Source: Orobanche coerulescens (Eukaryota > Streptophyta > Magnoliopsida > Lamiales > Orobanchaceae). From it: a DNA stretch of 64,000 nucleotides. The stretch lies in NCBI GenBank assembly GCA_033398695.1, contig CM065803.1, positions 42,585,501-42,649,500 on the forward strand, written 5' to 3'. Positions 293-63,764 of this stretch are shown here, piece by piece. Both the position numbers and the translations under genes were made by a program. Each line of letters opens with the position of its first letter. Within the stretch, counting starts at the first letter, position 1. The notes beneath the pieces were generated by a model. That model saw nothing but the letters and a program-made list of their open reading frames with translations. It was not told the origin of the DNA and did not search any database.

Positions 293-999
293 CAATAATG
301 CACAACTCCACAAAACAACAATACACAATACACGACAACATGATCGAAACAAAATGACTATAAAATGATATATTACTTGTCCCGAGTCCTTCGAGAGCAA
401 TCTCGATGTCAAAACCATCACCAACAATTATCCTCAATATTCGACGGTCCAAAATGTCACGGACGGTAGGTAATTCATGTCTTCGTCTATACCACAATGT
501 ATCCTCGATACTAAGTATACCAACAATAAATGTAAATCATATACATTATGATTTAATTCCCAAAACTCGAATACAACTTATAATCCCAAATCTCCTGTGA
601 TTACGATTATAAACATTGCTATACGAATTATAAACGAATGAAACGGAAATCATTCATTAAATATTATAAACTGAGCAAGTAATAACTTGCCTCCATACCG
701 ATACAACGATGAGGAAGCCGTTATCAATTCCATTGCCTTCGTCTACAAGTTCCTCGGTCCCGACCAAAGCAATTCACGAACATCCTCAAACTCGACCGCA
801 ACACACGGTTATAATCACCGATAAATATTCTCAACCTATTACAATAATTCTATAAACAACAAGTTCGATAACAATCAACAATCCAATCAAAAATCCCAAC
901 AGTTCTACAACATCTCGGTTTACCACAAGTCTGAACAATCCAACTTAAACGATCACGAATTCATAACCAAAACAGGATATACTACACTGCCTGTTGACT

Positions 1000-1081
1000 T
1001 AGCGCACGTTAATCACTTAACATAGCGTGCGCTAAGTCGCTTACGTTAGCGTGCGCTAGCCAGCAACACTAGCGTGCGCTA
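1000..1081. repeat. Inverted-repeat cluster TTAGCG..CGCTAA (proximal)
   Basis: Four copies of an inverted repeat with arms TTAGCG/CGCTAA around a TG or CA centre occur near 1000, 1023, 1047 and 1069. It is the same motif as the larger cluster at 1746-2247 but lies about 650 bp on the other side of the TATA-like box. It may mark a duplicated or second LTR segment. Confidence 0.8.
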
Positions 1082-1726
1082 ATGACATGCAGTTGCATGC
1101 ATTTCAGATACCGATCAACATATGGCGATTGTCAAGAACACTAGGTGATTTCGAAACCATGTTCATAGCTAACAAAACAACGAAATCCAATATCCTTTAA
1201 CATATAAATAATCATCCAACTCACATATTCATATATCATCTTCTTCCTCATAATCAACATAAGAATACCAAGAATTCATAATCATCGCCATGTTCACCAT
1301 CATACGAAGAAACCAACAACAACAACATCAAGACCCAAATTGAAGGAGGACATTAGCCAACATATCTCTTTGAAGATAAACAACACAATTCGAAACCGTT
1401 CGAATCATATCAATAATCGTATATCAATAATAACATCAACTTAACTCGGTAACCAATCTTGTAATCATCTTTATCAACTTGGTTATATGATAATCATTAA
1501 CTCAAGAACATCAACATTCAATCTAAAACAAAATCCAAAGTGAAGGGTAATTACCTCTTTGAAGGGATGGATTGATTTCCAAGGTTGAATCCATTCGCAA
1601 TCACTTCCAAGCTTCAAATGTTGTTCGGAACGATAAGTGTTTGGAACCTCAACTTCTTTCTAAGAACTCTCTCTATCGGTCGTGAGGAAGGAATGGACAA
1701 AATGAAGAATAATGGCCAACTACACA

Positions 1727-2247
1727 CATATATACGGTACATTATTAACGTACGCTAACATCCTCTTTTAACGTACGTTACATGCTTAGCATGCGCTAAC
1801 TGTCTTTTGTTAGCGTGCGCTATCGTGGTCTAGAGGCTACTGCCTTACTGCATACATTGATTTACGTACTCAATGCCCATGTAATAGTGTACGTAAAGGA
1901 CTCTATTTAGTGTACACGAAGTTTCATCCATAGCGTGCGCTACTCATAGTTGACTTGCTACAGTTTGCACCTACCCCCGTGTCCCCACATGCCGAAAGTA
2001 ACCTGACAAAGCCAAGATTCCTTTGGACCGATCTGATTAGCGTGCGCTAATCAATATGCATTAGCGTGCGCTAATCCTTCATAACAAACATCTGTTAACC
2101 TAGTCGGAACATGCGCCGAAAGTAGCCGGGTCCACACGTATATTCCTTCTGATCTGGTTTGTACTAGCATGCGTTATCCTTTACCATTAGCGTGCGCTAA
2201 ACCTGCACGATAGCGTGCGCTAGGCTTGAATATTAGCGTGCGCTAAT
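1727..2247 (-). promoter_or_regulatory. U3 inverted-repeat array plus TATA-like box
   Basis: Reading the minus strand, about nine inverted repeats (tagcgtgcgcta and variants such as taacgtacgtta) lie between 2247 and 1746 and are followed at once by TATATATG at 1734-1727. This is the order expected for an LTR promoter: upstream element array, then TATA, then transcription start. That the repeats act as an enhancer is inference. Confidence 0.55.
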
Positions 2248-10287: not shown

Positions 10288-12172
10288 TGTAACACCCCCA
10301 AGATGATCAGGGCATATTACAGCGCCGTGGACCCCACATTGTGGAATCTACCAGGTTAACGTACCAAATGACATTCGACAAAAGACATACAATCATCAAC
10401 AAAACGACAATTTCACAATCCACGACATCCAGACCAAAGACAGAAATTTGAAAATTCAGTCTGACATTAAATACATTCCCCAAAACGGGTACACAACAAT
10501 AATAAATTCAAGAAAGAGTACTTGAGTACTTAAATAAATGAGAACATAAATAAATCCTAAACAAGACACCAACAGACAACCACTGAACAGGATCACGCTT
10601 GCCCATCATCCTCGTACGGCTCGCATGCTCGTTTGCTTCCATGAACTGTACCTGAAATACAAAACTATTTTCCCCATTTAAGGGGTTAGCGACAACTGCT
10701 AGTGCAAGTACTATCCATTTGAACTACAGTTCTAATCAGATGAAAATATGCGCCAAAAATCGTTTAAGAAATCATTTATATTCCAGAATATTTACGGTGC
10801 ACAAGCACAAAATACATTTCTTCAACAAAATAATTCAAAGTTAACCGTTGGTACGAGACTCACGGCCACCGTACCCCGCAGAGCCCCGTCGGACATCCCT
10901 AGGTGGTTAACCATAGTTCGTGATACGCACACTCACGGAAATACGTATCCCTAGAGGCCCCGTCGGACCGTCCCTAGGTGAACATACACATATCCATCCA
11001 TACAACCACGAAAAGCCATAATTCAAATACTAGAACGCGTAAACAAATGTAAAGTACTTGCCTTTGAGACATTCTTAACGAAACGGGAAAGAACGATGAC
11101 TACGAATGATCCGGAGGAAAAACGGCCATTCCTAAACGAAGGATTAACATAACGCAGTCCGATACGATAACATTAATCGAATGGAAAACGTCCACAACCC
11201 CGATTACAAGCTATGACACAATGCGATCAATCGATACGGGCGAGGGTTTACGCAAAACCTCCCCGAATCGACAATTCACCGATTAAACTCGATAAAATCG
11301 GATTGGGAGTCACCCAATAACAACAATCGATGAGAAATATCACAACATACTTGAACAATTCAAGTCCTACAAGCAAAACCCGGAACCCCCCCCCCCCCAA
11401 ATTGACAAGTTAGGGTTCTAGACGAAAATACCTCGGATTCGGATGGAAGAAGATGATTACGTTGATGATGATGTAATAGCACGACCATACGATAATGGTA
11501 AATGAAGAACACACAGGTCGAAGGTGGAAGAAATCGCCTCCTGGTGTCGCCCGATGGAGAAAACGAAAGAAGAGATGAGAAAATGAGGTGTTGGCCTCTG
11601 CCCGCTGTTCTTAACACAGCGGACTGTTACGGCCGTAACAAGTGATGCATTACGGCCGTAACAGATGGGGTGTTACGGCCGTAACACCCTGCTGGACAGC
11701 AGTTCTGGGTAGCTGCTGTCCAAATGGTTCCGGACGACTCCGAAACCCGGACCTGCTATCAAACCAAAAATATGGTTACGAAGTACATTCGATGACGAAC
11801 CTAAGCGTAACAATAAAATACAATTCCAACTACCCGAGAATCTGAAATACGACAACGAAGATGAAATTCCCTAACTTATAGGAAAGTACAAAAATAGCCC
11901 AAGTGTCCGCAAATCAACGAACAACTCAACCATACGAACTCATGCAAATCAAGAAACAACGAAAACGAACAAGTTTCACGAGAATCGAGCGCACATACGG
12001 TAAACACAACATAAAATGCAATTACGTAAAAACACCTCCGAAACTCGTCCAAATGGAAAAACTCCAAGAATAAAGTAGGTTCAAAATGTCGAAACGGTTA
12101 CAAGCGAGTCGATAAAAATAGACATACACCACAAATGGAAACTGCTAAAAATGGAAAGGTACAGATATTACA
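10288..12172 (-). repeat. Element A 3' LTR
   Basis: It starts tgtaacaccc and ends gatattaca on the plus strand, matching 17127-18991 along its length. On the minus strand it begins TGTAATATC directly after the AGAGGGGGGGAA polypurine tract. It carries a short imperfect direct repeat around 10880-10970 (gccccgtcggac...ccctagg twice) in the downstream half and a GTTACGGCCGTAAC cluster at 11615-11688. A 10-bp C run at 11390 is specific to this copy. Confidence 0.93.
11615..11688. promoter_or_regulatory. U3 palindrome cluster GTTACGGCCGTAAC, three copies
   Basis: Three copies of the perfect palindrome TTACGGCCGTAA, two of them with outer G/C, lie within about 75 bp. The partner LTR (18424-18510) has a fourth, and the bases around the cluster differ strongly between the two LTRs. 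No strong TATA is seen next to it. A regulatory role is inference from the position equivalent to that of the other LTRs. Confidence 0.6.
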
Positions 12173-15200: not shown

Positions 15201-16830
15201 CGCTGATTAGAAATCTCTGGCTACTCCGCTTACGCCCCACAAAATAATGCTCGGTACCGTCGGAGGCTAACATCGAAACGGTTCTCGTTCTATAATTCAT
15301 GATCGCCCCATGACGGTCCAGCCAATCCTCACCAAGAATCAGATCCTCATCTCTAATATCTACCGCAATCAGATTAGAAGGCCAATCCCTCCCCGCGATA
15401 CTCACCGGAAAATCTCTAATCTCACGATCCCCCAAGATGCTATCCCCACTAGACAGTTTAACAACAAAAGGTTCACACACAACTAGGAAATCAACATGAA
15501 GACGACGCACACAATCCATAGATATGAAAGAATGCGTAGCACTGGAATCGAATAACACAGAAACAGGATGGTCAAGGATGTGAACGGTACCTGTAGCCAC
15601 CGTCGCGTCGGGATCTCCAGCTCGTTTCATCTCATATACACGGGACGTAACAGACCCCGCACTAGAAGCTTTCCCTATAGAAGGCTGCCCACATCCTCGA
15701 CCTCTACCAAAACTCTGCTGGGGCTGAGAAACTGTCGGTGCTTGATTCACGCTCGGTTCCCCCGCAGCTGGGGCTGACACCTGAGTAACTGGTGCCCGAA
15801 CCGCATCTGTACAAAACTTAGCACGATGACCCATCCGACCGCAAACAAGACACTGAATCGGAGGCCTGTCACACTCACTCATCATGTGGCCCGGACGACC
15901 ACAGTTAAAGCAGGTAGGACCCCGAACGGAACCAGTAGGAGCAGACTTAGAACCGCTTCCTCGCCCAAATGACGGGGATTGATTCCCGAAGACTCGTGAA
16001 CCAGACTGAGCCTTCGGATACCCGCCAGATTTGCCTCCCGAAAACTAACCGGAGGTCTTCTGTTTCTTTCCCTCGGTTGCCGTCTCTGTCGTAGAAAACG
16101 ACATATCATAAGCCATTGCTTTGTTTTGATACTCTTTCAGAATTGTACATCCGAGACCAGACATGTAGTGACGAACTCTCGGCTTCATCTGCATGTCAAA
16201 GTGGCGGATCTTGTCTAACTCGTCTCGGACCTGGTTTCTCACATAATGTAGTTGTTGGTTGTATTCCTTGATTGCCTGCGAAATCGGAACATCCTGGGGC
16301 ATAGCCTCAAAGAAGGCTCAGATCCTCCCTTCTTTAACTGGCCACAGACAAAATTCGTCCTCCATCAGCTCTCGGAACTCTGCCCATGTGGCTGCCCGAT
16401 AACACGGTTTCACCGCTTGCCACCACGTTGCTGCCTCCTTGGCGAGGAAGTACTGAGCGATGGGTACCTTCCTCTCCTCAGAGCAGTTAGCTGCCTCGAA
16501 CACTTTCTCCATCTCAAATAACCAATTCTCCCAACCGGAAGGGTCGGAAGCACCATCAAACTGCGGAGGACGCATACGAATCACGTCCTGAAGTAGCTTA
16601 TCATTGCCGGATCTAGTAGGCGGAACCGGGTTAGCATTTGCTTTGCCGACTAAGACCGCCTGAGTTAGTAGCGTCATGTGGTTCGCTACTTGCTGTAAAA
16701 TATTAGCCACCCCGATGATCTCATGAGCATTGTCGGAGCTAGAAGACTGATCCTGCTGGCCTCCGGAACTAGGTGGAACACTGTTCGACAAGGAAGGCAT
16801 CGCCGAATCAATTCCCGAGTTATCGGACAT
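12208..16830 (-). pseudogene. gag-pol: Element A gag-pol, one frame with about eight nonsense codons
   Basis: One uninterrupted minus-strand frame of about 1,541 codons runs from MSDNSG at 16830 to the stop at 12208-12210. In order it holds the gag capsid (FDGASDPSGWENWLFEM), two CCHC knuckles (CFNCGRPGHMMSEC, CLVCGRMGHRAKFC), a retropepsin (FDSSATHSF instead of DSGA), RT ([12 protein letters not shown] intact), RNase H, and integrase. The integrase has a zinc-binding domain and a DDE set in ISMDF, IISDRDG and DGQSERT. A chromodomain closes it (VQWSRHGVEKATWELE). It is broken by stops near 16316, 16043, 15128, 14189, 13883, 13331, 12791 and 12341, yet no frameshift is needed. A Gly/Arg-rich run precedes MSDNSG in frame, so the true start could be a little upstream, after a possible splice acceptor near 16912. 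The polyprotein would be non-functional. The DSS change also removes the standard protease Gly. Confidence 0.93.
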
Positions 16831-17108
16831 GGCCGCCCCACCGGCTGCACCACGTCCCCTACCGCGTCCGCGACCGCATCCGCATCCTCTACCAGTAGGA
16901 ATTCTGAAGAAGTAACAGGTGAGTACAATTCAAACGCAAAAATGCAACAAGATATCAAGAAAGGAACAGAACCGAACAACATAATAAGTCAAGTTAGGAA
17001 AAACTTACGAGCACCGGCGTACTGAGATGATGGCGTAGCAGTGATACTGTTCAAAAACGACACTCAACTAGACCCAAATAACCGACAACCTAGGTATCCA
17101 TAAACCTA

Positions 17109-17126: not shown

Positions 17127-18991
17127 TGTAACACCTCCAAGATGATCAGGGCATATTACAGCGCCATGGACCCCACAGTGTGGAATCCACCAGGCTAACG
17201 TACCAAATGACATTCGACAAAAGACATACAATCATCAACAAAACGACAATTTCACAATCCACGACATCCAAACCAAAGACAGAAATTTGACAATTCAGTC
17301 TGACATTAAATCCATTCCCCAAAACAGGTACACAACAATAATAAATTTAACAAAGAGTACTCGAGTACTTAAATAAATGACAACATAAATAAATCCCAAA
17401 CAAGACACCAACAGACAACCACTGAACAGGATCATGCTTGCCCATCATCTTCGTACGGCTCGCATGCTCGTTTGCTTCCATGACCTGTACCTGAATTACA
17501 AAACTATTTCCCCCATTTAAGGGGCTAGCGACAACTGCTAGTGCAAGTACAATCCATTTGAACTACAGTTCTAATCAGATGAAAATATCATCATTTTAGA
17601 AATCATTTATATTCCGGAATATTTATGGTGCACAAGCACAAAACACATTTCTCCAACAAAACAATTCAAACTTAACCGTTGGTACGAGACTCACGGCCAC
17701 CGTACCCTGCAGAGCCTCATCGGACATCCCTGGGTCGTTAACCATAGTTCGTGATACGCACACTCATGGCAATACGTATCCCTAGAGGCCCCGTCGAATC
17801 GTCCCTAGGTGAACATACACATATCCATCCATACAAGAATGCGTAAACAAATGTAAAGTACTTGCCTTTGAGACATTCTTGAAGAAACGGGAAAGAACGA
17901 CAACTACGAATGATCCGAAGGAAAAACGGCCGCTCCTAAACGAAGGATTAACATAACTCAGTCCGATACGATAACATTAATCGAATAGAAAACGCCCACA
18001 ACCCCGATTACAAGCTATGACACAATAGGATCAATTGATACGGGCGAGGGTTTACGCAAAACCTCCCCGAATCGACAATTCACGGATTAAACTCGATAAA
18101 ATCGGATTGGGAGTCACCCAATAACAACAATCGATGAGAAATATCACAACATACTTGAACAATTCGAGTCCAACAAGCAAAACCCGGAAAACCCCCCCAA
18201 AATTGATAAGTTAGGGTTCTGGACGAAAATACCTCGGATTCGGACGGAAGAAGATGATTACGTTGATGATGATGTGATAGCACGACCCTACGGTAATGGG
18301 AAATGAAGAACACACGAATCGAAGGTGGAAGAAATCGCCTCCTGGTGTCTCCCGATGGAGAAAACGAAAGAAGAGATGAGAAAATGAGTTGTTGAACTCT
18401 GCCCCTGTTCTTAAAACAGCGGGCTGTTACGGCCGTAACAAATGATGCATTATGGCCGTAACAATGGACATATTACGGCCGTAACAGATGGGGTGTTACG
18501 GCCGTAACCTATTTGGGACGCGATTACGGCGACATTGTCCAAACTATTCCGGATGACTCCGAAACCCGGACCTGCTATCAAACCAAAAATATGGTTACGA
18601 AGTACATTCGATGACGAACCTAAGCGTTACAAGAAAATACAATTCCGACTACTCGGGAATCCGAAATACGACAACGAAGATGAAATTCCCTAACTTATAG
18701 GAAATTACAAAAATGGTCCAAGTGTCCGAAGATCAACGAACAACTCAACCATACGAACTCATGAAAACCAAGAAACAACGAAAACGAACAAGTTTCACGA
18801 GAATCGAGCGCACATACGGTAAACACAACATAAAATGGAATTACGTAAAAACACCTCCGAAACTCGTCCAAATGGAAAAACTCCAAGAATAAAGTAGGTT
18901 CAAAATGTCGAAACGGTTACAAGCGAGTCGATAAAAATAGACATACACCAAAAATGAAAACTGCTAAAAATGGAAAGGTACAGATATTACA
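17127..18991 (-). repeat. Element A 5' LTR
   Basis: It matches 10288-12172 with scattered substitutions and a small deletion near 17836 relative to the other copy. It ends gatattaca at 18991 in plus orientation. The palindrome cluster at 18424-18510 lies in the U3 part. Confidence 0.93.
18424..18510. promoter_or_regulatory. U3 palindrome cluster GTTACGGCCGTAAC, four copies
   Basis: Four TTACGGCCGTAA palindromes, one with a G-to-A change in its core (tatggccgtaac), lie here against three in the partner LTR. The sequence just beyond (acctatttgggacgcgatt) does not match the partner's (acaccctgctggacagcag). The cluster has therefore changed copy number or been replaced since insertion. Confidence 0.6.
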
Positions 18992-21856: not shown

Positions 21857-24198
21857 TGTAATACCCGGTTGTAATTCAGTCACTATCATTCAGTAATTTC
21901 ATTCGGTGATTGTCACTCAGTGGATTTTCACTCATTTATAATCATTCATCAATCATATTCATTCACCGTGTTCACCATTCGGAAAAACTTCGAGTTGTGT
22001 ATCGTTATTGTTCATTGTTTCAACTTTCCTCATATGAGTTCGACTTTGTTAGATCACCATTAATTTTTGGTAACTCCAAAAATTCTAAATCTTTGCAATA
22101 TTATAGAGCATCGAGTTAGCTTTCCAATGGTTCAAACGATGAGTCAATCGGAGTCCGGACGAGAGAGTTATGGTCGTTTTAGCTCACCCGCTCATTTTTC
22201 AGATTTTGGCCGATCACGGCCGACCGGACTCGGCCGTGTCGTCCGACACGGCCCGTGCCGTACTCGTCCGGATAATGCCGAAGTGTCTGCCTCAGGCCCG
22301 ACCGTGTCGTCTGGCACGGCCGAGTCGCACCCTTCCGGATAGGCCAGAACCGTCTGACCAGAGGCCCGACCGTGTGCCAGGACACGGTCGAGTCAATACC
22401 GAGCGCCGCGGACGGGTCACTATCGGTAGGCCCCTTTGCGCGCGACCGTGTCATGCGGACACGGTCGAGTCAATGCCGGCCAGCTGCGCGCCGCGACCGT
22501 GTCAGGCGGGCACGGTCGAGTCTGGCTGCCGAGTCAACCCCTATAAATTCATTTTTTGAGCATTTTGAGCTCATTTCTTCCATATTTTTCCATCTTCTTC
22601 ACCTGCAACTGAGAGAGAATAACTTGAGGGAGAGATTTCTTCATCAATTATCATTTGAGTGTGTATTTTCATCACCTTCAATCATTTGGGAAGCTTGGAT
22701 AGTCGTTTTTACGCGTTTTCATCGGATCGAATTGGTTGGATCTTCAAGAGGTAAATTCTTCAACACTTTGGACTTCGATTTTGTGTTGAGATATGATGTT
22801 TTGGACGTTATAATCATGTTATATGAAGGGATATGTGTATGATTATGAGTTTGTATAAGGATTCATTGGATTATTGAGGAATTATTCAAGAACACGTTGA
22901 AAATCGAGTTGGAATTGGGGATTTTCGACTAATTGTTGTTATAATCACATTTTTGGATATTCATAACGGATTATTGATCGTATTGGAGATGTTTTGTTGG
23001 TTTGAAACACTTCTTGGGGAATTTTGATATTGGTATATCGAAGTTTGTTTGTAAACAATCGGAGTTGGATACAACGTGTTTGATTTAATGTCTCTATGGA
23101 CTTGGTTTAGTCGTATCGACGTTTGGAATTCGTTATATTCGTGTATTGATCGGATTGTTGGTAATTGTATTGAATTAAGGTTGTTCGAGCGACCGATATC
23201 TCAATTAGGACGTTGTTCGTGGAAGGATAATTGTCATCGGTATTGTGTAAGTTAATTCTTACTCGGTTAAAAAGGATATCCATACCTTTTGTTGTTGATC
23301 GTTCATAATCATAACTCATTCATCATTGTATTAATCATATTAAAACTTGTTATTGTCAATTAATCACTTCAGTCATAAGGAACGACGGTTCCAATCTTTT
23401 CATTGAGCTATCATTCATTTCATTATTACCCTCATCTCGGTGAGTCACTCTTGACTTTGTCAGATTATTATTTATCCATTGATATTCATTACGGTCATTT
23501 TCGTTCATATGACCTTCTAGGTTCATATTGCGTGGCCGGGTGTGGCTGTGTGGAATTTTTAGTTGGGCACATGATGGTCATGTATTGGGTTCACCGATAC
23601 ATCGGACCGTGCACACAGTAACGCTTACCTCCGTGAGACTAATTAGGTACAAGGACGGGTGTATCCGGTCATTCGTCTTGTACACTTGCACAGAACATTA
23701 CGGGCGTACTATGATACTCCTCTTCAGCGAAATTCATAATTAAGAATATTTCATAACTTCAGTTAATCATGATTGTGTATTTTCAACCCTTGAGGATTGT
23801 TGTTCTTTGTAACTGACCCCGTTTGGGGATTTTGTTTTTCAGGTCATGGCAAGGCAAACGCACGGGAATAGCATGTTGATGTCGAGGAGTCCTAGTAATA
23901 CTAGTAGGGGGCCCCAAATCCTTTCAGTCATTCCTATTGTTGTCATTTATTTTCCGCTGCAGATTTTCATTTGAATACTCCGTTTCATTCAGTGTTGTGT
24001 ATTTTATCTTCATATAAAATACACTAGTATTCGGTATTGTCCTGGTGTGTTGTAACTAAACTCCTCATCGGAGTAATTATCGTTGTAATGTAGTTCGGTA
24101 CTACATTTATCTTGTGTAATTCATTCATTTTCATTTGCACAGTGGGTCCCAGGTTGGGGATCTACCGCCGTAATATCCGCCTAGTTTGGGGTGTTACA
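21857..24198 (+). repeat. Element B 5' LTR
   Basis: It starts TGTAATACCC and ends ggggtgttaca. U3 has cattca-rich sequence, then the inverted-repeat cluster 22200-22525, then TATAAAT at 22542-22548 and a pyrimidine-rich leader. Several plus-strand frames inside it recur at the same places in the 3' LTR and are not genes. Confidence 0.95.
22200..22548 (+). promoter_or_regulatory. U3 inverted-repeat cluster (GACCGTGTC/GACACGGTC) plus TATA
   Basis: Repeated stem-like units such as gaccgtgtc-atgcg-gacacggtc, with 9-bp arms and a 4-6 bp spacer, plus shorter variants (cggccgtgtcgtccgacacggcc), fill about 320 GC-rich bp. They end just before TATAAAT at 22542. The partner cluster at 29165-29485 differs by many substitutions and small indels while the flanks match. 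Confidence 0.65.
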
Positions 24199-25524: not shown

Positions 25525-25880
25525 TTCTGGTACACCGCATTCATTCATTTTCGAATCATGCTTGAATAGACTTATTTCGGGATAGTCCTATTGCTTGTGG
25601 ACCTCATACCATCGGTCTACCTGACGATGGAAGAATTTTCGGAATCATACCGAATTAAGCTTAATGACCGCGATTGGTTGATAGATCTAATCGTGGTGAA
25701 CCTATCTTAGGACGATGTAATTTTCGGTATTAGTTGGTTTAACCGTCTTGATACTATCCTCAGTGATTGTTAGCGTTTGGTCGCTATCTTTCCGTCGTTT
25801 GTTGTCGAATGTATGCTTCAGGGAAGTAATCCCCGTTGTTCCAATAGAATTTCTATTATGGCGGAAGCAGAGAAATTCCG
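25515..25880 (+). pseudogene. pol: Element B protease remnant
   Basis: After a frame change the retropepsin motif DSGTPHSFI is read near 25520. It is followed by FGISWFNRLDTI near 25715-25760 and GSNPRCSNRISIM near 25820-25860, matching the usual PR/linker order of chromoviruses. Several stops intervene. The protease-RT linker downstream is replaced by a minisatellite. Confidence 0.7.
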
Positions 25881-26205
25881 CAATCGAACTATTCAATCAT
25901 TCATTGTATCATTTCCACCGATTGGCCTTTCTAAGACAATCGAGTCATTCAATCATTCATTGTATCATTTTCATCGATTGACCTTTCTAGGGCAATCGAG
26001 TTATTCAATCATTCCTAGTATCATTTTCATCGATTGACCTTTCTAGGGCAATCGAGTTATTCAATCATTCATTTCATCATTTCCATCGATTGGCCTTTCT
26101 AAAGCAATCGAGTTGTTCAATCATTATTGGTATCTCTTTTTATCGATTGACCATTCTAAGACAATCGAAATGTTCAATCATTCGTGGTATCATTGTCATC
26201 GATTG
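25880..26205 (+). repeat. 56-bp minisatellite inside element B pol
   Basis: The core atcgattg recurs near 25917 (as accgattg), 25973, 26029, 26085, 26142 and 26199, a 56-57 bp period. Each unit reads roughly atcgattgacctttctaggg, caatcgag and ttcaatcattc. It lies between protease and RT where a coding linker is expected. The same unit forms an array in LTR J (63418-63690). Confidence 0.9.
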
Positions 26206-27250
26206 ACGATGTATTTCCAGACGAGTTATCTGGTTGCCTTCACATAGATTAGGGGAATTCAGGAGTGAGTTGGAGCCGGTACGTCCCATTTATCGAAGGC
26301 ACCGTATCGGATGGCCCCGACCAGAATGCAGGAGTTAAAGACTCAACTTGAGGAGTAGTTCGAGAAAGGTTATCTTCGACCGATTGCGCCCCCATGAGGA
26401 ACACCAGTGTGATCTGTCAAGGAGAAGGATGGCTCGTCTCGTGTGTGTATTAATTACCAGGAGTTGATCAGGGTGATGATCAAGAGTAGTATCCCTTACC
26501 CCGTATTGATGATCTTTTAGATCAACTTCAGGGAGCTTCAGTATTTTCCAGGATCGACTTAAGATCTGGATATCACCAGTTGCGGATTCGAGAGTCGGAT
26601 ATCGCGAGGACAGCGTTTCATACACGCTATGGTCATTATGAGTTCGTAGTTATGCCGTTCGGGCTAACTATTACACCTGTGGTATTCATGGGGTTAATGA
26701 ATCGGGTTTTCATCGACTTTTTGGATCAGTTTGTTGTTGTCTTCATCGCCGACATTTTGATTTATTCTCATAGCCGAGAGGAACACGAGGTTCATCTTCA
26801 TCAGGTTCTCGACGTGTTGAGACGAGAACAACTATATGGAAAGTTTTCCAAATGTGAGTTCTGGAGGTCCGAAGTGACTTTCTCGGGCATGTAATTTCAT
26901 CAGCGAGTTCGTGTCGACCCTCGGAGACGGAGACTATCCGAGATTAGCAACCTCCGAAAGATATTAATTAAATCCGATGTTTCCTCGGATTAGGTGGTTA
27001 ATTATCCACCCACGACACGGAACTAGCGGTAGTGGTGTTCGCTGAAAATTTGGCGTCGTTACCTTTATGGCGTCACCTTTGATTATTCACCAATCACAAG
27101 AGTTGAAGGATATATTTACTCACAAGGAGTTAATATGCGACAGGCGGTGGTTGGAACTAATCAAAGATTTTGATATCGAGATCCTTTACCACGGACAAGG
27201 CGACGTTGTCGCCGACGCTTTGAGTCGTAAGTCCGTTCAAGAGCAAATGC
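26206..27250 (+). pseudogene. pol: Element B reverse transcriptase and RNase H, broken
   Basis: It starts with DDVFPDEL-like linker sequence and reaches the RT palm at 26580-26894 ([20 protein letters not shown], then [12 protein letters not shown]). The catalytic box should be FIDD, so one aspartate is Ala. Sequence after 26894 is deleted or scrambled up to 27000. RNase H resumes with HKSLKDIF near 27090-27110 and ends at [11 protein letters not shown] near 27205-27230. Multiple stops and frameshifts preclude function. Confidence 0.85.
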
Positions 27251-27519: not shown

Positions 27520-28784
27520 TCGATTTTGAGAGAAGCTCATGCTACCCCTTATTCTGTTCATCATCCGGGGTCCAAGAAGATGTAAAAGGACTTGAAACAA
27601 AATTCTTGGTGGAGTAATATGAAGCGAGAAGTCGCGAATTTGTTTCGAGATGCTTAACTTGCCAACAAGTCAAGATTGAACATCGGCCCGTGGGTATCTG
27701 AAACCTCTCCTATTCAGTGGAAGTGGGAAGACATTTCCATGGATTTCATTACGAGTTTGCCGACGAGTCGTCGTGGCATGAATACGATCTGGGGGATTGT
27801 GGACCGCTTAACTAAATCAGCTCATTTCCTTGAGATCAAGGATACGTGGGGTCCCGAGAGACTGGCCCAGTTATTCATCAAGGAGATAGTAAGACTGCAC
27901 GGTACTCCTAAGAGTATCATTTCCGATCGTGACGGTCAATTTGTGTCTCATTTTTGGAAATCAGTTCATCGTGCTATGGGAACTCAGCTTAATCTCAGTA
28001 CTGCCTTTCATCCTCAGTCCGACGGACAATCAGAGAGGACTATTCAGACATTAGAAGACATGTTGAGAGCTTGCGTCCTCGATTGGAAGGACGATTGGGA
28101 AGCCCAATTACCGTTGATCGAGTTCACGTATAATAATAGTTGGCATGCTTCCATTAAGATGGCACCTTACGAGGCCTTGTACGGTCGTCGTTGTCGCTCT
28201 CCTTTGTGTTGAGATGACTTGTCAGAATCAATCGGCACCGAGCCCGATATACTTATAGCCGTCCGGGAGAAGGTAGCTATGATCAAGAGTCGTATGTTGA
28301 CAGCTCAGAGTCGACAGAAATCGTATGCGGACAATCGTCGTCGACCACTAGAGTTCGAGACGGGTGACCATGTTTTGGTCAAGGTATCCCCGAGTCGAAG
28401 TATTTTTTTTGTTTCGGAAAACGGGGGAAGTTGAGCCCAAGATTCATTGGACCGCTTGAAATTTTGGATCGAGTAGGCGAGTTAGCTTATCGATTGGCTT
28501 TACCTCCGGCTTTGAGCAGGATTCATAATGTCTTTCACGTCTCTCAGTTGCAGAAGTATGTTGCCGACCCGAGTCACATACTTCAGTTCGACGAAATCGA
28601 GATCGCGGATGATCATTCGTACGAGGAGCGTCCTGTACAAGTGTTAGAGCGGCGAATCAAACAGTTGAAGAATAAGTCGATTCCTTTGGTCAAGATTCAG
28701 TGGTCTAGACACGGAGTCGAAGAGGCTACTTGGGAAACTGAGGATAGTATGCGGGAGAGTTATCCCGAGTTGTTTGACCCTTAG
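27520..28784 (+). pseudogene. pol: Element B integrase with C-terminal chromodomain
   Basis: The zinc-binding part (EAHATPYSVH) has stops. The core at 27676-28212 is nearly intact, with DDE residues in ISMDF, IISDRDG and DGQSERT. It ends at a TGA after RCRSPLC. The GPY-type C-terminal part continues to a frameshift at a T run (28405-28412). It resumes at 28431 (RFIGPLEILDRVGELAYRLA) and closes with a chromodomain (VKIQWSRHGVEEATWETE) and a stop at 28784. Chromodomains direct integration to marked chromatin in this lineage. As a whole it is inactive. Confidence 0.9.
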
Positions 28785-28817: not shown

Positions 28818-31150
28818 TGTAATACCCGGTTGTAATTCAGTCACTATCATTCAGTAATTTCATTCGGTGATTGTCACTCAGTGGATTTTCACTCATTTAT
28901 AATCATTCATCAATCATATTCATTCACCGTGTTCACCATTCGGAAAAACTTCGAGTTGTGTATCGTTATTGTTCATTGTTTCAACTTTCCTCATATGAGT
29001 TCGACTTTGTTAGATCACCATTAATTTTTGGTAACTCGAAAAATTCTAAATCTTTGCAATATTATAGAGCATCGAGTTATCTTTCCAATGGTTCAAACGG
29101 TGAGTCAATCGGAGTCCGGACGAGAGAGTTATGGTCGTTTTAGCTCACCCGCTCATTTTTCAGATTTTGGCCGATCACGGCCGACGGTTCGGCCGTGTCG
29201 TCCGACACGGCCCGTGCGTACTCGTCCGGATAATGCCGAAGTTCGCCTCAGGCCCGACCGTGTCGTGCAGCGCGGCGAGTCGCACCCTTCCGGATAGGCC
29301 AGAACCGTCTGACCAGAGGCCCGACCGTGTGCCAGGACACGGTCGAGTCAATACCGAGCGCCGCGGACGGGTCACTATCGGTAGGCCCCTTTGCGCCGCG
29401 ACCGTGTCATGCCATACACGGTCGAGTCCCTTCCGGCCAGCTGCGCGCCGCGACCGTGTCAGGCGGGCACGGTCGAGTCTGGCTGCCGAGTCAACCCCTA
29501 TAAATTCATTTTTTGAGCATTTTGAGCTCATTTCTTCCATATTTTTCCATCATCTTCACCTGCAACCGAGAGAGAATAACTTGAGGGAGAGATTTCTTCA
29601 TCAATTATCATTTGAGTGTGTATTTTCATCACCTTCGAACATTTGGGAAGCTTGGATAGTCGTTTTTACGCGTTTTCATCGGATCGAATTGGTTGGATCT
29701 TCAAGAGGTAAATTCTTCAACACTTTGGACTTCGATTTTGTGTTGAGATATGATGTTTTGGACGTTATAATCATGTTATATGAAGGGATATGTATATGAT
29801 TATGAGTTTGTATAAGGATTCATTGGATTATTGAGGAATTATTCAAGAACACGTTGAAAATCGAGTTGGAATTGGGGATTTTCGACTAATTGTTGTTATA
29901 ATCACATTTTTGGATATTCATAACGGATTATTGATCGTATTGGAGATGTTTTGTTGGTTTGAAACACTTCTTGGGGAATTTTGATATTGGTATATCGAAG
30001 TTTGTTTGTAAACAATCGGAGTTGGATACAACGTGTTTGATTTAATGTCTCTATGGACTTGGTTTAGTCGTATCGACGTTTGGAATTCGTTATATTCGTG
30101 TATTGATCAGATTGTTGGTAATTGTATTGAATTAAGGTTGTTCGAGCGACCGATATCTCAATTAGGACGTTGTTCGTGGAAGGATAATTGTCATCGGTAT
30201 TGTGTAAGTTAATTCTTACTCGGTTAAAAAGGATATTCATACCTTTTGTTGTTGATCGTTCATAATCATACCTCATTCATCATTGTATTAATCATATTAA
30301 AACTTGTTATTGTCAATTAATCACTTCAGTCATAAGGAACGACGGTTCCAATCTTTTCATTGAGCTATCATTCATTTCATTATTACCCTCATCTCGGTGA
30401 GTCACTCTTGACTTTGTCAGATTATTATTTATCCATTGATATTCATTACGGTCATTTTCGTTCATATGACCTTCTGGGTTCATATTGCGTGGCCGGGTGT
30501 GGTTGTGTGGAATTTTTAGTTGGGCACACGATGGTCATGTATTGGGTTCACCGATACATCGGACCGTGCACACGGTAACGCTTACCTCCATGAGACTAAT
30601 TAGGTACAAGGACGGGTGTATCCGGTCATTCGTCTTGTACACTTGCACATAACATTACGGGCATACTATGATACTCCTCTTCAGCGAAATTCATAATTAA
30701 GAATATTTCATAACTTCAGTTAATCATGATTGTGTATTTTCAACCCTTGAGGATTGTTGTTCTTTATGTGACCCGTTTGGGGATTTTGTTTTTCAGTCAT
30801 GGCAAGGCAAACGCACGGGAATAGCATGTTGATGTCGAGGAGTCCTAGTGATACTAGTAGGGGCCTCAAATCCTTTCGATCATTCCTATTGTTGTCATTT
30901 ATTTTCATTTATGATTTTCATTTGAATACTCCGTTTCATTCAGTGTTGTGTATTTTATCTTCATATAAAATACACTAGTATTCGGTATTGTCCTGGTGTG
31001 TTGTAACTAAACTCCTCATCAGAGTAATTATCGTTGTAATGTAGTTCGGTACTACATTTATCTTGTGTAATTCATTCATTTTCATTTGCCTGGTGGGTCC
31101 CAGTTGGGGATCTACGGCACTGTAATATCCGCCTAGTTTGGGGTGTTACA
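28818..31150 (+). repeat. Element B 3' LTR
   Basis: It matches 21857-24198 closely. Differences are scattered single bases, except for a dense group in the inverted-repeat cluster (29165-29485) and a few small indels in the last 450 bp. TATAAAT is at 29499-29505. Confidence 0.95.
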
Positions 31151-31658: not shown

Positions 31659-31727
<69 letters not shown>

Positions 31728-41824: not shown

Positions 41825-42959
41825 TGTAATATCCGCATTTTTCCTTTCTCCTGTATTTTTCATTTTGGTGTATTTTTTTTCGTTTTTAGTTACTCGCTCG
41901 TAACCGTATGGATATTTCGAGAATATTTAATACTGTACTTTTTATCATCCGAGCTTATTCGGACTTCTTTTACCCAATTCTGCGTTTATTGTCATTTCCG
42001 TCTCTATTTGGTTCGATTCGTTATCGTTGTTCGGAATCGCCGCTTCAGGGTTGCCACAAATCTATCATATGTTATTATGCATGTTATGAGCTCTTGGTTG
42101 GTGTTTCGATCGTGTATCTTGTATTTCGGAGGTTTTGGGCCGTCTTATAATTTCCCAAAGTTATGGGGTAAATATGTTTGTCGTTGTTTTCCGAACCTTC
42201 GGGTAGTCAGGAACATGTTTTCTTTTGGTGTTTAACGTCATCTCAAACTCTTCGTAAGCATGCTTTTGTTTCGTGTTTGTATCGTCTCGTGACTTCGTCA
42301 CACCCTTACTCGTCAAACTGCTCGTATGATGCTGGGGAACCTTACGTACGCTATGTGAAGAGCATTACGTACGTTAAGGCTTCTGGAGTATTACGTACGT
42401 AATGGCTCTTATCATAACGTATGTAATAGTCTATGTGTGTTTGGGCAGATTCTTGTGCCAATCTATTATGTATGTAAGCTTGGAAGGCTTACGTACGTTA
42501 AGCTACTAACGTACGTTAGCTGTGCAGGGGTTACGTACGTTATCGGGGCCTGGGTTTAAATACCTAGTAGTTGACCTGTTTCGTCATTTTTCTTTCCTTC
42601 TTCTCCTCCTCCGCATTTTGGGCGATTCATAGGCTATTTTGGGCGATTTCGACTGGGCAATCATCTAGCTATCATCCTTCTTAAGTTCTCGGTGTATATT
42701 AACAACACCAACACTTGTTCTTCGTCTCCGATCCTAGGTAAAACTCTTAGAACTCTATATTTGGGTAAATTGGGGGTTTTCAAGTATTTGTCCGATTTGC
42801 TCCGTGTTGTTGATTAATTCATGTTGTATATGATTAATCCTTGTGTATCCCTTGTTTTCCCTACGAGTTCATGGTAACTTTCGTGGTATTTGTGAAATCG
42901 AGAGGGTTCGGTTGTGACCCACCCTCGTTGTTTTTGTACGAATTTACATGAATCGTAGG
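41825..42959 (+). mobile_element. LTR E (chromovirus-type), left part
   Basis: It starts TGTAATATCC and resembles the F LTR (catccgagcttattcgg, cgtatggatatttcgag, gggccgtcttataatttc). U3 palindromes at 42340-42545 precede TTTAAATA at 42555-42562 and a leader with a donor-like ctaggtaaa. It is interrupted at 42960 by element H, and its continuation is 60267-60420. It is inserted in the Tat pol. Frames within are not genes. Confidence 0.8.
42340..42562 (+). promoter_or_regulatory. U3 palindrome cluster TTACGTACGTAA plus TATA-like box
   Basis: About eight copies of the perfect palindrome (T)TACGTACGTAA or close variants such as ttacgtacgttaa lie here, followed by TTTAAATA. Two overlapping ACGT cores occur per palindrome. 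ACGT is the core recognised by plant bZIP factors, so a dimer-binding site is plausible but unproven. Confidence 0.6.
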
Positions 42960-44443: not shown

Positions 44444-45171
44444 GTAGGTGGATTTTCGGGTGTCTTTCATTTTCATACTCGTGTAGAAATGGTTGTGATT
44501 GTATTATTTGAATCATTAGGTTCGGGATTGTCAGTTCCTAGCGATCGTGGTTGATTTTCTGTTCCGTCCGTTTCGTCGTTAATTACTCAAGGCAAGTTGT
44601 AATATCTGGGGATAATTTTTTTGAGTTGCTGTTATGTTGTACGAATTCATTCGGAATTGTATAAGTGTTGTTGTACTTGACAGGTACAATGTATATTGTG
44701 TTGAAATATTTCAGAATCGAAATATTTATATTTGTCGTCAGTATTGTAGTCACCATTTGTTTTGCTGGGTGAGTTTAGATTTTTGGCCAAGTATAATATC
44801 CATAGCGTACGCTATATGTATAGCAGTACGTACGCTACGGGCGGATTGTTACGTACGTTAAACTTTATTGGTTACGTACGTAACACAGGGCATCCATCCG
44901 GATCAGATCTTTCGGCGTGTGGGGCGGACGAGGCAGGATTCGCGGGGTTCGATTGGGACAGACAGGTCAACTCACATTACGTACGCTATACGTTGAGGTT
45001 AACATACGTAATGCTGAGGTTGGATACGTACGTATTTTTGTTAACGTACTTAACGAGTGTCCCGTTTTGAGGTAGTAGCCTCTGGAGGAGTATTACGTAC
45101 GTAACACCCTTGTGATAGCGTACATAATGGCTCTTACATAAGTTATGCTTTGTGTATAGCGTACATAATGT
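44444..45171 (+). repeat. Duplicated patch of LTR E and LTR I sequence inside element H
   Basis: 44444-45171 matches 60267-61002, the right flank of element H. It comprises the last 154 bp of the E fragment and the first 574 bp of LTR I (TGTAATATC start at 44598). It lies where the primer site and first leader of H should be. It contains a second copy of the ACGTACGT palindrome cluster (about 44803-45165). Confidence 0.9.
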
Positions 45172-47784: not shown

Positions 47785-48000
47785 CGTGTTCCGCGGCACA
47801 CCCATCCGGTGCCGCGGCACAAGCAGCGATGCCGCGGCAGACACCTATCCGGTGCCGCGGCACACTCGTGTGTCTTCTGCGACCTTAACTTGCATGCGGG
47901 TGCCGCGGCACACGCAGGCTGTGCCGCGGCACAATGCCGAAACCTGGGAGTATTTTTTTGGCATGTGCCGCGGCACACTTCGGCTGTGCCGCGGCACACA
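47785..48000 (+). promoter_or_regulatory. U3 palindrome cluster GTGCCGCGGCAC
   Basis: About eight copies of the perfect 12-bp palindrome GTGCCGCGGCAC (some tgccgcggca) in 215 bp. The partner cluster at 53930-54115 has fewer intact copies and many substitutions and indels, whereas sequence on both sides is nearly identical. Confidence 0.65.
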
Positions 48001-51118: not shown

Positions 51119-51381
51119 TTAGCGCACGCTATGCCTTGCGCTAGCGCGCAAGAGTGCGTTGGTAGCACGCTAAGGGGAGGATAGCGCACGCTACCTGGTA
51201 GTTCAGGGCAATCCAGGAGCTACTGGACTGAGTCTGAAGTTCTCGTTAGCGCACGCTAACACTTGGGGTTAGCGCACGCTAACAGTGTATTTTTGGTGAG
51301 GAGTTTTGTTTGGTGCCGTGAAAGCGCACGCTAACCTTAATGATTAGCGCACGCTAATTGTGTCCAGTATAAATACTGGAC
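51119..51381 (+). promoter_or_regulatory. Second U3-like module inside F: TTAGCGCACGCTAA array plus TATA
   Basis: About seven inverted repeats with arms TTAGCG/CGCTAA lie between 51119 and 51355, the same motif as LTR L0 at the left edge. TATAAATA follows at 51368-51375 and is itself the centre of a near-perfect 20-bp inverted repeat (51362-51381, arms gtccagta/tactggac). A pyrimidine-rich leader with ggtattttct-like donor follows. F therefore carries an internal promoter unit from a different LTR family. Confidence 0.55.
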
Positions 51382-53360: not shown

Positions 53361-55555
53361 TGTAATATCCGCAATTTTCGATTTTTGGTAAATTTCTTTT
53401 TCGTCCGAGTCCGTTTTGGCTCGCTCATGACCGCTTTCGTCATTACGAGAATGATTAATTCTACACTTTTTGTCATCCGAGTTCGTTTGGGTGTTTTTTT
53501 GTTGAGTTACGTGCTTTTAGCGACTTTTCGCACTTGAGTTCGATTCTTGCGAATCTCGTCCGAAACTGCTGTTTCGAATTTCCCGCAAGTTCGTTTAACT
53601 TTGTTAGACGTGTTGTGAACTTCGGTTTGGTTATTCGATCACGTATCGTGATTTCCGGGTGTTTTGGGCCATTTTGTAATTTCTTGAAAGTTACGGGTAT
53701 CCATATCTGTATTTGTCATCTTGACCCTTTTCTTAGTCGCGTATGATTAATTATTGCATTACGTTTCATCTCGAGTCGTTGATGTCGTCCGCGAACATTT
53801 CTAAGTGTTCGTTCCGTGCGTTTTGGAAATCGAGGCATCGGGTCGTGGCGGCCGCCGGACCGGTGCGGCAATCGCCGGAAGTCCGGCATCGCCGAAAGGG
53901 CCCGTGTAATATGTCGAACAAATCAGATCGTGCCGCGGCACACCCATCCGGCAGCGGCACGGTGCCGAGCAGCCGCGCACACTCGTGTCTTCTGCGACCT
54001 TAACTTGCTCGCATCGGTGCCGCGGCACATGCAAGCCGTGCCGCACAATGCCGAAACACAGGAGTATTTTTGCTCAGGCCGCGCACACTTGGCCGTGGCC
54101 GCGGCACACAAAGCGGTCACCGCGCAACTTCGTCTTTATTAGACGAAATCGGCCATTTCTTCTTCATTTTCACCTGCGCGAGAAGAGGGAGATCCAAGGG
54201 GGAGAGAACTTCTCAAACAATCTTCATCCGGGGGTTGATTTTCATCATTTCCTTTCGGTTGTGAGGCTCGGATAATCAATCTAACGTGTGTTCTACGGAT
54301 CTTAGTCCTTGAATCTCCAAAGGTAATATTTCTAGAACCCTATTTTCGATTAATTTGGGGGTTTTTGGGTTTTTCTTCCGATTCCTTCCATTTTGTTGGT
54401 GGATTCATGATGAATACGATTAATATTGTTAGTATCTTTAGTTTTCCTACGGATTCATGGATATTTTGTGGATTTTTACGGAATCGAGAGGGTTTGGTCG
54501 TGGTCCGCCCTCATTGTTGTTTATATACGAATATACATGAATCGTAGGCGGGTTTTCGGGTGTATTCCAATTCCGTATTCATTTAGAAATGGTTGTGATT
54601 GTATTCTTCGAATCGTTAGGTTCGGTTTCATTAGTTCCTAGCGTTCGTCGGTGACTTTCCTTTCCGTTCGTTGCGTCGTCAATAATTCAAGGCAAGTATT
54701 TTTGGAAACCTTTATGCTTAACGTGAAATGGTAATGTATATTGTGTGTGATTTGCTCACCTCGGGAGGGTCCGACGGGATCACGGGGGGAATCTATGGCT
54801 TCGTCCTGGATTCATGAGTTTGATTCGCTAGCCAGCTCAAGAGGGTCCTTAGAGGCCTCGAGTGGGATTCGTGGCTTCGTCCCGGTCCTAGGTGACGTGT
54901 GGTGCTTGGTTTGTTTTATGAATGTGGCCAGCTCGGGAGGGTCCTTAGAGGCCTCGAGTGGGATTCGTGGCTTCGTCCCGGTCCTAGGCAAATTAATTGG
55001 GACTGTTTGTTTCCGGAAAAGACATGTCTGGTTTTGACTTTTGAAATTGATATTGGTGCATGTACTATGAAATGTGTAAGCGATTGGTTTGCCTTGAATA
55101 CTTGTACTAGCGTAATTGCTAACCCCTTTGGGGATCCGTTGTCGGGGAAATTCTTGTTATGGATTTCAGGTTATGTTCAGTCAGACGAGCGGGCGCTGGG
55201 ATGGTACGAGGATGTCGGCCAAGGTTGTTGACATGTGCAATTGAGTCTTGTTATTTCCTACTGTCTCTTTTGATGTGGGTGTTTTCCAAAGTGTAAACTT
55301 ATAGATTGTACTCGCGAGTACTTAGGCTTTTTCCTTTCAGATTGTGTTTGGACTTCGTTGGAGTACTGTATTTGTCGGTTGATGTTTATTATGCCGGTTG
55401 TACCGGACGTGTTGTTTTATTTTCTTGTTGTTAATAATTGTTTCCTTGCTAACCGAGATGGTTAGTCGAGTGGTGTTTTCTTGTGTTAGCCTGGTGGGTC
55501 CCATGTAGGGGTCCACGGCGCTGTAATACACCTCGAATATCTTGGGGGTGTTACA
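53361..55555 (+). repeat. Element F 3' LTR
   Basis: It matches 47212-49436 almost base for base outside 53820-54125. The palindrome cluster (53930-54115) and the preceding 100 bp are strongly altered. The tandem repeat is at 54750-54990. Confidence 0.94.
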
Positions 55556-60420: not shown

Positions 60421-61838
60421 TGTAATATCCGGGGATAATTTTTTTTTTTTGAGTTGCTGTTATGTTGTACGAATTCATTCGGAATTGTACAAGTGTTGTT
60501 GTACTTGACAAGTACAATGTATATTGTGTTGAAATATTTCGGAATCGAAATATTTATATTTGTCGTCAGTATTGTAGTCACCGTTTTGTTTTTGCTGTAT
60601 GAGTTTGGATTTTTGGCTAAGTATATTAGCCATAGCATACGCTATATGTATAGCAGTACGTACACTACGGGCGGATTGTTATGTACGTTAAACCTTGTTG
60701 GTTACGTACGTAACATAGGGTATCTATCCGGATCAGATCTTTCGGCGTGTGGGGCCGGACGAGGCTGGATTCGCGGGGTTCGATTGGGACAGACAGGGCA
60801 ATGCACATTACGTACGCTATACGTTCAGGTTAACATACGTAATGCTGAGGTTGGTTACGTACGTATTTTTGTTAACGTACGTAACGAGTGTTCCGTTTTG
60901 AGGCAGTAGCCTCTGGAGGAGTATTACGTACGTAACACCCTTGTGATAGCGTATGTAATGGCTCTTACACACGTTATGCTTTGTGTATAGCGTACGTAAT
61001 GTGATGCCCATGTTATATATCTTGGTTTCGTATTTCATTTATTCACGAACCAAAATCGATTTCCCCTCCCTAGATAGGTCCCTCTGGACCTGTTCTTGAT
61101 AATGAGACTCTTCCAATGTGATTTTGATCATCCTAGCTTGGATTGAGACTTGAGGTTGGAAGCTTTTCTTACTCCTTTGGTGTTTGGAGAGTTCATCTTG
61201 TTCTTCTTGGGTAAGTTTTATTAATCTCTTGTTCTTCAACTGATTTTCGAGTATGTTGTTGCTGTGGTTGTTGTTTACTTCATGTATTGATTGATGGATG
61301 GAGGATAACATGATTATTGATGAGTTTTTATAACTTATGACTAAGAACATGATGATTATGTCTTGAGGAGGGTTGTTCTTGATGTTTTTGAATACTTGGG
61401 GGTTATAATCATGTCTAGGAAGAGTTATGTTAAGATGTTAGATGATTAACATATCTTTGAGACGATTATTGTTGTTGGTTGTGTTCTTGGAGGATTATAA
61501 CCATTTTAGTTTAGAATTATGATGAATTATGTGAAAATTTTCATAATCTTGAAATGGTTGATTTAATCGTTGATTAATCCGAATTTATGATGAATTGGTG
61601 GAGGATTATCGGTTGAACTCATGGTTGTTGTGTCGATGATGTTTTTGATGTGTTAGTGTTAATATTGGCGAGGTTATCATTTTGGGGTGATTAGTATAAT
61701 GTTGTTCTTAAGCGATTCTTGTTGAATTGTTTTCACAAGTGTAAGAACATTTGATCGTATTGATAACTGAGGTGTTGGAATTCATAGTTGAGAACTATGA
61801 TATTCGTTTGTGGGGTCTAACCGATACGGGATTGAACC
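60421..61838 (+). mobile_element. LTR I (chromovirus-type), left and middle part
   Basis: It starts TGTAATATCCGGGG. An ACGTACGT palindrome cluster at about 60635-61000 precedes TATATAT at 61014-61020, then a leader with ttgggtaag donor-like site. It is interrupted at 61839 by LTR J. The T run at 60439-60450 is longer than in the copy at 44598. No coding sequence is supported; the short frames inside belong to LTR sequence. Confidence 0.75.
60635..61020 (+). promoter_or_regulatory. U3 palindrome cluster TTACGTACGTAA plus TATA
   Basis: Ten or so motifs (ttacgtacgtaa, gttaacgtacgtaac, attacgtacgctat) precede TATATAT. It is the same motif as in LTR E, although the rest of the LTR differs from E, which suggests that the cluster is shared between LTR families. 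Confidence 0.6.
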
Positions 61839-62199: not shown

Positions 62200-62312
62200 G
62201 CTGTACCGCGGGCCGCGGCCCCTTCTGGCTGGGCTGCGGCACAAAGGAAGTGTACTGGGTAGTTTTTGGCCGTGGGCCATGGCACACTCATCCTGTGCCG
62301 CGTCACACAGTA
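62200..62312 (+). promoter_or_regulatory. Degraded U3 inverted-repeat cluster in LTR J
   Basis: accgcgggccgcggcccc, gctgcggcacaaag, ggccgtgggccatggcacac and ctgtgccgcgtcacac are broken versions of the GTGCCGCGGCAC motif of element F. They lie at the same relative place in U3. Confidence 0.45.
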
Positions 62313-63690: not shown

Positions 63691-63764
63691 ATTGGGACTG
63701 TCGAGGATGGTGCCTATCCGTGTGTTACTGTCATCGTGTTGGCCGACTCAAGGCAGCACACTAT

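Follow-up and report, generated by a model that had tools for sequence, protein, structure and literature searches.

Arrays of short palindromes upstream of the TATA box as putative activator modules in Ty3/gypsy LTRs of Orobanche coerulescens

Ty3/gypsy long terminal repeats (LTRs) of Orobanche coerulescens carry arrays of short palindromes in their U3 region, and this observation, made in a 64-kb stretch of DNA (the window, C3:42585501-42649500), is confirmed across the host genome of 3,646,015,169 bases (3.65 Gb, 1279 contigs). The arrays have a regular geometry, are phased to the TATA box where one is found, are conserved across LTR families, replace one another as blocks, and occur on a genome-wide scale. 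We favor, with somewhat better than even confidence, the reading that they are promoter-proximal activator modules, in which the palindromes would be sites for a homodimeric host DNA-binding protein.

Results

Twelve arrays in a cluster of LTR elements

The window holds several LTR elements, whose array-bearing LTRs include the following:

10288-12172 and 17127-18991, minus strand: matching LTR pair of element A, with Ty3/gypsy domains
21857..24198, plus strand: 5' LTR of element B, in which the initial annotation had made its finding; starts with TGTAATACCC, ends with GGTGTTACA and is followed by GGTATCGGAGC
28818-31150, plus strand: partner LTR of element B, a 97.4% self-match to 21857..24198
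47212-49436: LTR bearing array F1
53361-55555: LTR bearing array F2

The LTRs of A, B and F have the TGTAATA start and the GGTGTTACA end in common, and the primer-site-like word GGTATC(A/G)GAGC stands directly after the copy at the 5' end. This junction of LTR end and primer site occurs 96,475 times in the genome (control: 0). Elements A and B both contain RVT_1 and SH3_Tf2-1, with RVP_2 and Integrase_H2C2 matches in A as well; in both, RVT_1 lies ahead of integrase and SH3_Tf2-1, which is the Ty3/gypsy pol order, and rve matches fall below the cut-off. The domain search gave no Chromo match in element A and a sub-threshold one in element B (28368-28781, 20.3 bits against a cut-off of 25.1). 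By domain order and this weak Chromo match in B, the array-bearing Ty3/gypsy elements are probably chromoviruses.

All twelve arrays that the initial annotation had placed in the window could be read in the sequence and mapped by motif (B by half-site). Together with their TATA-like boxes, they are:

1745..2246, minus strand: L0 array, 11 palindromes of the TTAGCGCACGCTAA type
1729..1734, minus strand: TATATA of L0, 17 bp past the last palindrome center
999..1082, minus strand: second L0 cluster, on the downstream side of the TATA box, with 4 palindromes stepped by 23-24 bp
11625..11689, minus strand: A1 array in LTR 10288-12172, TTACGGCCGTAA three times with a step of exactly 23 bp
18425..18509, minus strand: A2 array in LTR 17127-18991, four sites with a 23-bp step
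22230..22518, plus strand: B1 array, five dyads CGACCGTGTC..GACACGGTCG, half-sites 13-14 bp apart
22542..22547, plus strand: TATAAA after B1, about 37 bp past the last dyad, read in the sequence
29189..29475, plus strand: B2 array, four dyads and one unpaired half-site
42342..42542, plus strand: E array, eight sites of the TTACGTACGTAA type
42556..42562, plus strand: TTAAATA, the TATA-like box of E, 19 bp past the last center
44802..45104, plus strand: I1 array, eight sites of E type including one ATAGCGTACGCTAT, with weaker copies to 45169
47787..47998, plus strand: F1 array, eight TGTGCCGCGGCACA-like sites, in LTR 47212-49436
51119..51357, plus strand: K array inside the F interior, six sites of L type
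51368..51373, plus strand: TATAAA of K, 17 bp past the last center
53929..54108, plus strand: F2 array, three sites left, in LTR 53361-55555
60632..61000, plus strand: I2 array, eight or more sites of E type
61014..61019, plus strand: TATATA of I2, 20 bp past the last center
62210..62307, plus strand: J array, degraded F-like, three sites with 1-3 mismatches

The window contains other repeats as well. A 2.2-kb segment composed of a copia-like LTR, an E-like LTR end and the start of an I LTR with its array is present twice in the same orientation (42960-45171 and 58783-61002, 95.8% identical, 15.8 kb apart). Both the B interior (25880-26210) and, downstream, the J LTR (63399-63692) contain tandem repeats of about 56 bp (GTTATCGATTGGCCGTTCTAAGGCAATCG-like) that are 72-78% alike, and the window ends in a tandem repeat of about 36 bp with many dyads (63765-64000, tgatacggcttcgtgccgtggcttcggcc), to which an ACGGC..GCCGT array at 36-37 bp steps in a sampled LTR (L037) is comparable. 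A perfect (TA)31 run at 31660-31721 adjoins the start of a copia-like repeat.

The arrays exceed shuffled sequence and recur throughout the genome

When each array was compared with 200 dinucleotide shuffles using 5-bp arms, its largest set of alike inverted repeats exceeded all shuffles in 8 of 12 cases (L0, A1, A2, B1, I1, F1, K and I2). For B2, E and F2 the score was reached by 3 of 200 shuffles, and J (62200-62310) received no support from this test. B dyads, five in B1 and four in B2, numbered at most one in 500 shuffles, and none was found elsewhere in the window. Across the whole window, 319 overlapping 400-bp windows contained 326 inverted repeats with 6-bp arms, against 129 expected, in a test that fails to pick out B, E and J.

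For the wider genome, 20 regularly spaced 10-kb pieces from C1-C4 (200 kb) were sampled. A motif-blind detector found 6 arrays in the window and 6 in these samples, all 12 of the TTACG, TTAGCG or GTGCCG kind, and 0 in shuffles (three per sequence; for the window, of its first 20 kb). Motif scans, which cover types A, E, L and F with B read by half-site, gave 32 clusters in 264 kb at the tolerant setting (0 in one shuffle each, 0 with reversed motifs) and 49 clusters in 321 kb at the looser one (4 in shuffles). The looser scan found 22 clusters in the samples, 15 of the 20 being positive; taken as representative of the genome, the samples extrapolate to roughly one array every 9 kb. A single motif class forms 115,199 neighboring pairs genome-wide, compared with 3 for its reversed control. 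Clusters were also found in 13 (tolerant scan) or 15 (looser scan) of 20 5' LTR pieces taken from every fifth listed junction in the first 6 Mb of C1, where some fetched pieces stop inside the LTR and part of the misses may be out of range. In one of these pieces (L030) the counted cluster is not within the LTR, which has a B-type array of its own; in two others (L032 and L036) arrays were detected by the motif-blind detector. The initial annotation had reasoned that palindromes at random LTR positions, or palindromes no more frequent than in shuffled sequence, would speak against its finding. Both comparisons favor the arrays: 12 motif-blind arrays stand against 0 and 49 clusters against 4, 97 of 100 palindromes with at most one mismatch in the 200 kb of samples lie inside clusters, and the arrays begin some 160-580 bp into the LTR.

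Most palindrome types share one half-site logic

Types A (TTACGGCCGTAA), E/I (TTACGTACGTAA) and L/K (TTAGCGCACGCTAA or TTAGCGTGCGCTAA) have half-sites TTACG or TTAGCG in common, placed around two central bases, and A, E, I, L0 and K form one motif family, TTA(G)CG-NN-CG(C)TAA, whose types are mixed within single arrays (L039, L042, L014 and I). The proposal that each family carries its own palindrome holds only in part, as A, E, I, L0 and K follow a common half-site logic and appear together in single arrays. Nor are the palindromes CG-centered, as had been described: the central bases are GC in A and F, TA in E and I and mostly CA/TG in the L type; in terms of length, short-form sites usually have TA or GC there, and long-form sites CA, TG or TA. 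Two types are built otherwise. The F type is TGTGCCGCGGCACA, with the half on the TATA side better kept (outer TGTG in 40/45 against 13/45), and the B type is a gapped inverted repeat with half-sites 13-15 bp apart.

In sequence profiles, the information stops near the edge of the palindrome. At L sites the outer bases show almost independent variation (44 of 115 equal, 37 expected), which is what separate reading of two half-sites would give. On the sense strand of the sampled arrays, L centers are CA in 90 cases and TG in 8, and 19 arrays have a CA majority, one a TG majority and one a tie. A strict orientation rule for the L center was nevertheless dropped, since TATA-adjacent sites genome-wide number only 67,481 CA against 49,163 TG, part of the TG-form matches being arrays read from the other strand. 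No known motif matched, and to our knowledge none of the NAC, SBP, bZIP and other factor families explains A, E and L together. Further repeated inverted repeats occur in the downstream part of four sampled 5' LTRs (L025 1594-1776, L037 1856-2022, L039 1855-2060 and L042 1793-1998), with CGTGA..TCACG at 75-89 bp steps and GTACA..TGTAC at 63-64 bp steps.

Palindromes keep a regular step and a preferred distance to TATA

The arrays lie in U3, mostly 160-780 bp past the LTR start, and end near the TATA box; second clusters follow downstream of the first in L0 (999-1082) and in a sampled LTR (L018). From center to center, the step is mostly 22-24 bp, or 21 bp in the F type, and the commonest gaps between neighbors in window and samples are 23 (76 cases), 24 (43), 21 (18), 18 (12) and 22 bp (12). 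Among the plus-strand genome matches listed, which are the first places of one chromosome and include copies of one element, 40 of 58 pairs have centers 22-24 bp apart within an allowed range of 13-43 bp; five lie at 19 and five at 20, and none at 13-18, 21 or 25-29 bp. The dyads of B1 follow each other at 68, 68, 76 and 51 bp. Neighboring spacers are 27% identical (24 pairs), the same as random spacers from other loci. On the basis of these 24 pairs, recent tandem duplication was rejected as the origin of the step in types A, E and L, and it was kept for the B type of L030.

A TATA box lies 8-45 bp downstream of 17 of 32 arrays, against 14% expected, the orientation of part of the sample arrays having been set by hand from TATA or LTR start. 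In 15 of these 17, the last center stands 16-22 bp before the box, usually at 16-20 bp; one of the two others (L009) is on the strand opposite its LTR start. The second center stands 39-43 bp before the box in 12 of the 17, and in 7 the third stands at 57-61 bp and the fourth at 80-85 bp. No TATA-like box was in the 8-45 bp range for the other 15 of 32 arrays, among which are every A and F array of the window. Genome-wide, TTACG-type palindromes followed by TATA occur 32,729 times (control: 196) and L-form palindromes followed by TATA 67,481 (CA) and 49,163 times (TG; control: 1 each). Among the genome matches listed, the distance to TATA is 16-18 bp for 46 of 87 of the TTACG type, 70 of 89 L sites with a CA center and 36 of 85 with a TG center. 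The ggttcaaac block, proposed as a landmark on the other side of the array, is present within the window only in B1, B2 and J. At C1:3667723-3668210, palindrome-to-TATA matches point outward on opposite strands about 490 bp apart, with several copies nearby; this may be a two-way promoter or a chance AT-rich edge.

Palindromes are kept between families and replaced in blocks

In the 11 LTR pairs that could be aligned, palindromes are 81% identical (922/1133), spacers 58% (961/1655) and flanks 63% (2290/3643), a difference that may be inflated, as the aligner may favor palindromes. Palindromes are better kept than spacers in 10 of the 11 pairs and better than flanks in 10 of the 11, the exceptions being L039/L042, where spacers are kept better than palindromes, and L007/L022, where flanks are. 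Within single elements (the LTR pairs of A, B and F) this protection is absent: differences affect 62 of the 600 sites inside arrays and 188 of the 5704 sites in the rest of the LTR, partly through indels. With arrays kept across families but more divergent within single elements, selection, if any, acts on lineages that are still moving.

LTRs with homologous flanks can hold different arrays at the same place. Over the first 480 bp of U3, the F1 LTR matches L007/L022 at about 90% identity; in the next 500 bp, inside which the array lies, identity falls to about 40% or less, and the sequences are then similar again; despite the alike upstream U3, F1 carries F palindromes and L007/L022 carry L palindromes. 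Likewise, the B LTR and L020/L023b are 87-89% alike over about 180 bp directly before the array and similar again after it, B carrying B palindromes and L020/L023b F palindromes. Array blocks of the same type are in turn homologous including their spacers (F1 compared with L031, 81%; L010, 73%; L020, 72%). The simplest reading is that array blocks have been exchanged whole between LTR families. The initial annotation's description of a position-fixed, sequence-variable module gains support from these two comparisons, with arrays ending near TATA in about half of the cases.

Discussion

How could these arrays work? We propose that each palindrome is a putative site for a homodimer of a host protein, with the half-site TTACG or TTAGCG in A, E, I, L and K, CGGCACA in F and CGACCGTGTC in B. 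Neighboring dimers would sit at steps of 21-24 bp determined by the protein, the last usually 16-20 bp before TATA, and the array-bound dimers would drive transcription of the element by Pol II. Such a module would be kept in lineages that are still transposing and have no protection in resting copies, and could pass whole from one LTR family to another, perhaps through template switching within mixed particles; block exchange would explain why one place in the LTR can hold different palindromes. The combination of near-loopless dyads, half-sites that vary separately, a fixed step without conservation of the spacers and a favored TATA distance points to stacked protein dimers beside the transcription machinery, and sites kept across families suggest a benefit to the element and hence activation. 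Protein binding, activation, the host origin of the factor and the route of exchange are inferred. The earlier suggestion that dimeric factors recognize the palindromes gains support, by inference from dyad symmetry, fixed step and cross-family conservation.

Clusters of activator sites in LTRs have precedents. ONSEN-like copia LTRs carry clusters of stress-response elements, sites for dimeric or multimeric host activators upstream of the LTR TATA. The arrays described here resemble them as putative activator-site clusters in that place, and differ in that ONSEN-type clusters answer to one known factor; we know of no block replacement between families and no 22-24 bp step in ONSEN-type clusters. 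The closest precedent is found in Sirevirus LTRs, whose palindromic repeated motifs (RM boxes) lie upstream of TATA, are element-specific, mostly have a CGG-CCG core and form clusters that delimit CpG islands, according to the available text of PMC2829016, in which the RM motif is absent from the classic retrotransposons compared. In both cases, many copies of a short dyad-symmetric motif, differing in sequence between elements, occupy the upper half of the LTR upstream of TATA, and the palindromic LTR motif reaches high copy number. However, Sireviruses are Ty1/copia elements and the elements here are Ty3/gypsy; the CGG-CCG core occurs here in type A only, is absent from E, I, L and K, and is turned to CCG-CGG in F and B; and L0 and L018 depart from the upstream-only pattern with second clusters lower down. 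The step, the TATA distance and the block replacement measured here are without description for Sirevirus in the available text of PMC2829016. As the closest precedent has it, the arrays would work like Sirevirus RM boxes, and what is new is their presence in another superfamily, mostly with different cores, together with block replacement and with a step and a TATA distance that were measured here. In the open-licence literature we found chromovirus or gypsy LTRs nowhere described as carrying palindrome arrays, which is no proof of absence: the available portions of two papers on LTR structure (PMC11656987, PMC11963269) do not mention them, and among the papers listed for the motif strings none was, judged by title, on plant LTRs.

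Other roles for the palindromes are conceivable. One, which we regard as unlikely, is that they act in RNA: the transcript's 3'-terminal U3 copy would fold into hairpins or dimerize, for packaging, or feed the production of small RNAs. In maize Sireviruses, as far as the available parts of PMC10760457 and PMC5311732 go, palindrome clusters in the regulatory part of the LTR are highly variable, are small-RNA hotspots and are interpreted through RNA structure and small RNAs; our arrays share the location and the variability. They also fold better than shuffles (z of -2.4 for I1, -3.9 for L0 sense and -4.3 for L0 antisense), although any palindrome array would give RNA structure of this sort. Against a role in RNA, a single palindrome, with its loop of zero to two bases, cannot fold into a hairpin, antisense folding is as good as sense folding, and the CA center that prevails on the sense strand of sampled L arrays would place C-A mismatches between RNA copies, even if the genome-wide TATA-adjacent counts are more even. 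RNA pairing moreover predicts neither a fixed TATA distance nor a 22-24 bp step. Center bias and strand-symmetric folding thus disfavor RNA hairpins as the main role.

We also give little credence to the arrays being entry points for host silencing, bound by sequence-specific plant proteins of the REM-GDE1 kind that would recruit Pol IV. The arrays are CpG-rich, and in Arabidopsis, REM-GDE1 reads short spaced repeats and recruits CLSY3/4-Pol IV (PMC12270911, in the part available), but the REM motifs TTTTGCTTAT and the AAGCGGAT repeats given there are non-palindromic, unlike these arrays. Elements should lose sites of this kind, yet the arrays are kept across families and phased to TATA. The initial annotation's alternative of a silencing target that changes by turnover is likewise not favored, as palindromes are kept across families while their surroundings diverge. 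A double role, in which an activator site is also read by host silencing, is possible.

Much less probable still is local tandem-repeat growth without function. The 69-bp B units of L030 and the stronger divergence of arrays within the element LTR pairs would fit it, but in types A, E and L the step is maintained across unrelated neighboring spacers, palindromes stay conserved from family to family and TATA phasing is present; the B type is still compatible with such growth. We hardly expect the arrays to be bound by a protein of the element itself that would relieve silencing, in the way of VANC on VANDAL repeats: in the available text of PMC5735166, VANC targets are short-motif arrays in noncoding parts of related elements that change fast in type and number, as the arrays do here, but VANDALs are DNA transposons whose motif is not described as palindromic, whose tandem repeats spread by duplication and whose binder is element-encoded, and the ten frames of at least 120 aa inside A and B show gag-pol domains or nothing (16321-16929 is open without any domain match), with no extra domain. 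A binder supplied by another element is possible. Palindromes as insertion targets of other elements were set aside, as the preference reported in the available part of PMC6911290 is weak and concerns the flanks of insertion sites.

Coming back to the arrays as activator modules, the geometry of putative binding (half-site, step and TATA distance) is given by the sequence itself at tens of thousands of places, so that the factor can be sought directly. Block replacement offers a natural comparison, namely alike LTRs with differing control modules. The arrays indicate that palindromes upstream of TATA, known among copia elements as a Sirevirus feature, arose or spread in a second superfamily. 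More tentatively, and with real doubt on our side, we consider a promoter code that spans the genome: a single host family of dimeric DNA-binding proteins, recognizing TTA(G)CG-NN-CG(C)TAA dyads at steps of about 23 bp from TATA, might have been captured by many Ty3/gypsy lineages of this plant. Families would then change factor by swapping array blocks, and array type rather than ancestry would decide where and when an element is transcribed. The arrays bear on why a few LTR families fill large plant genomes and on which host proteins these families need.
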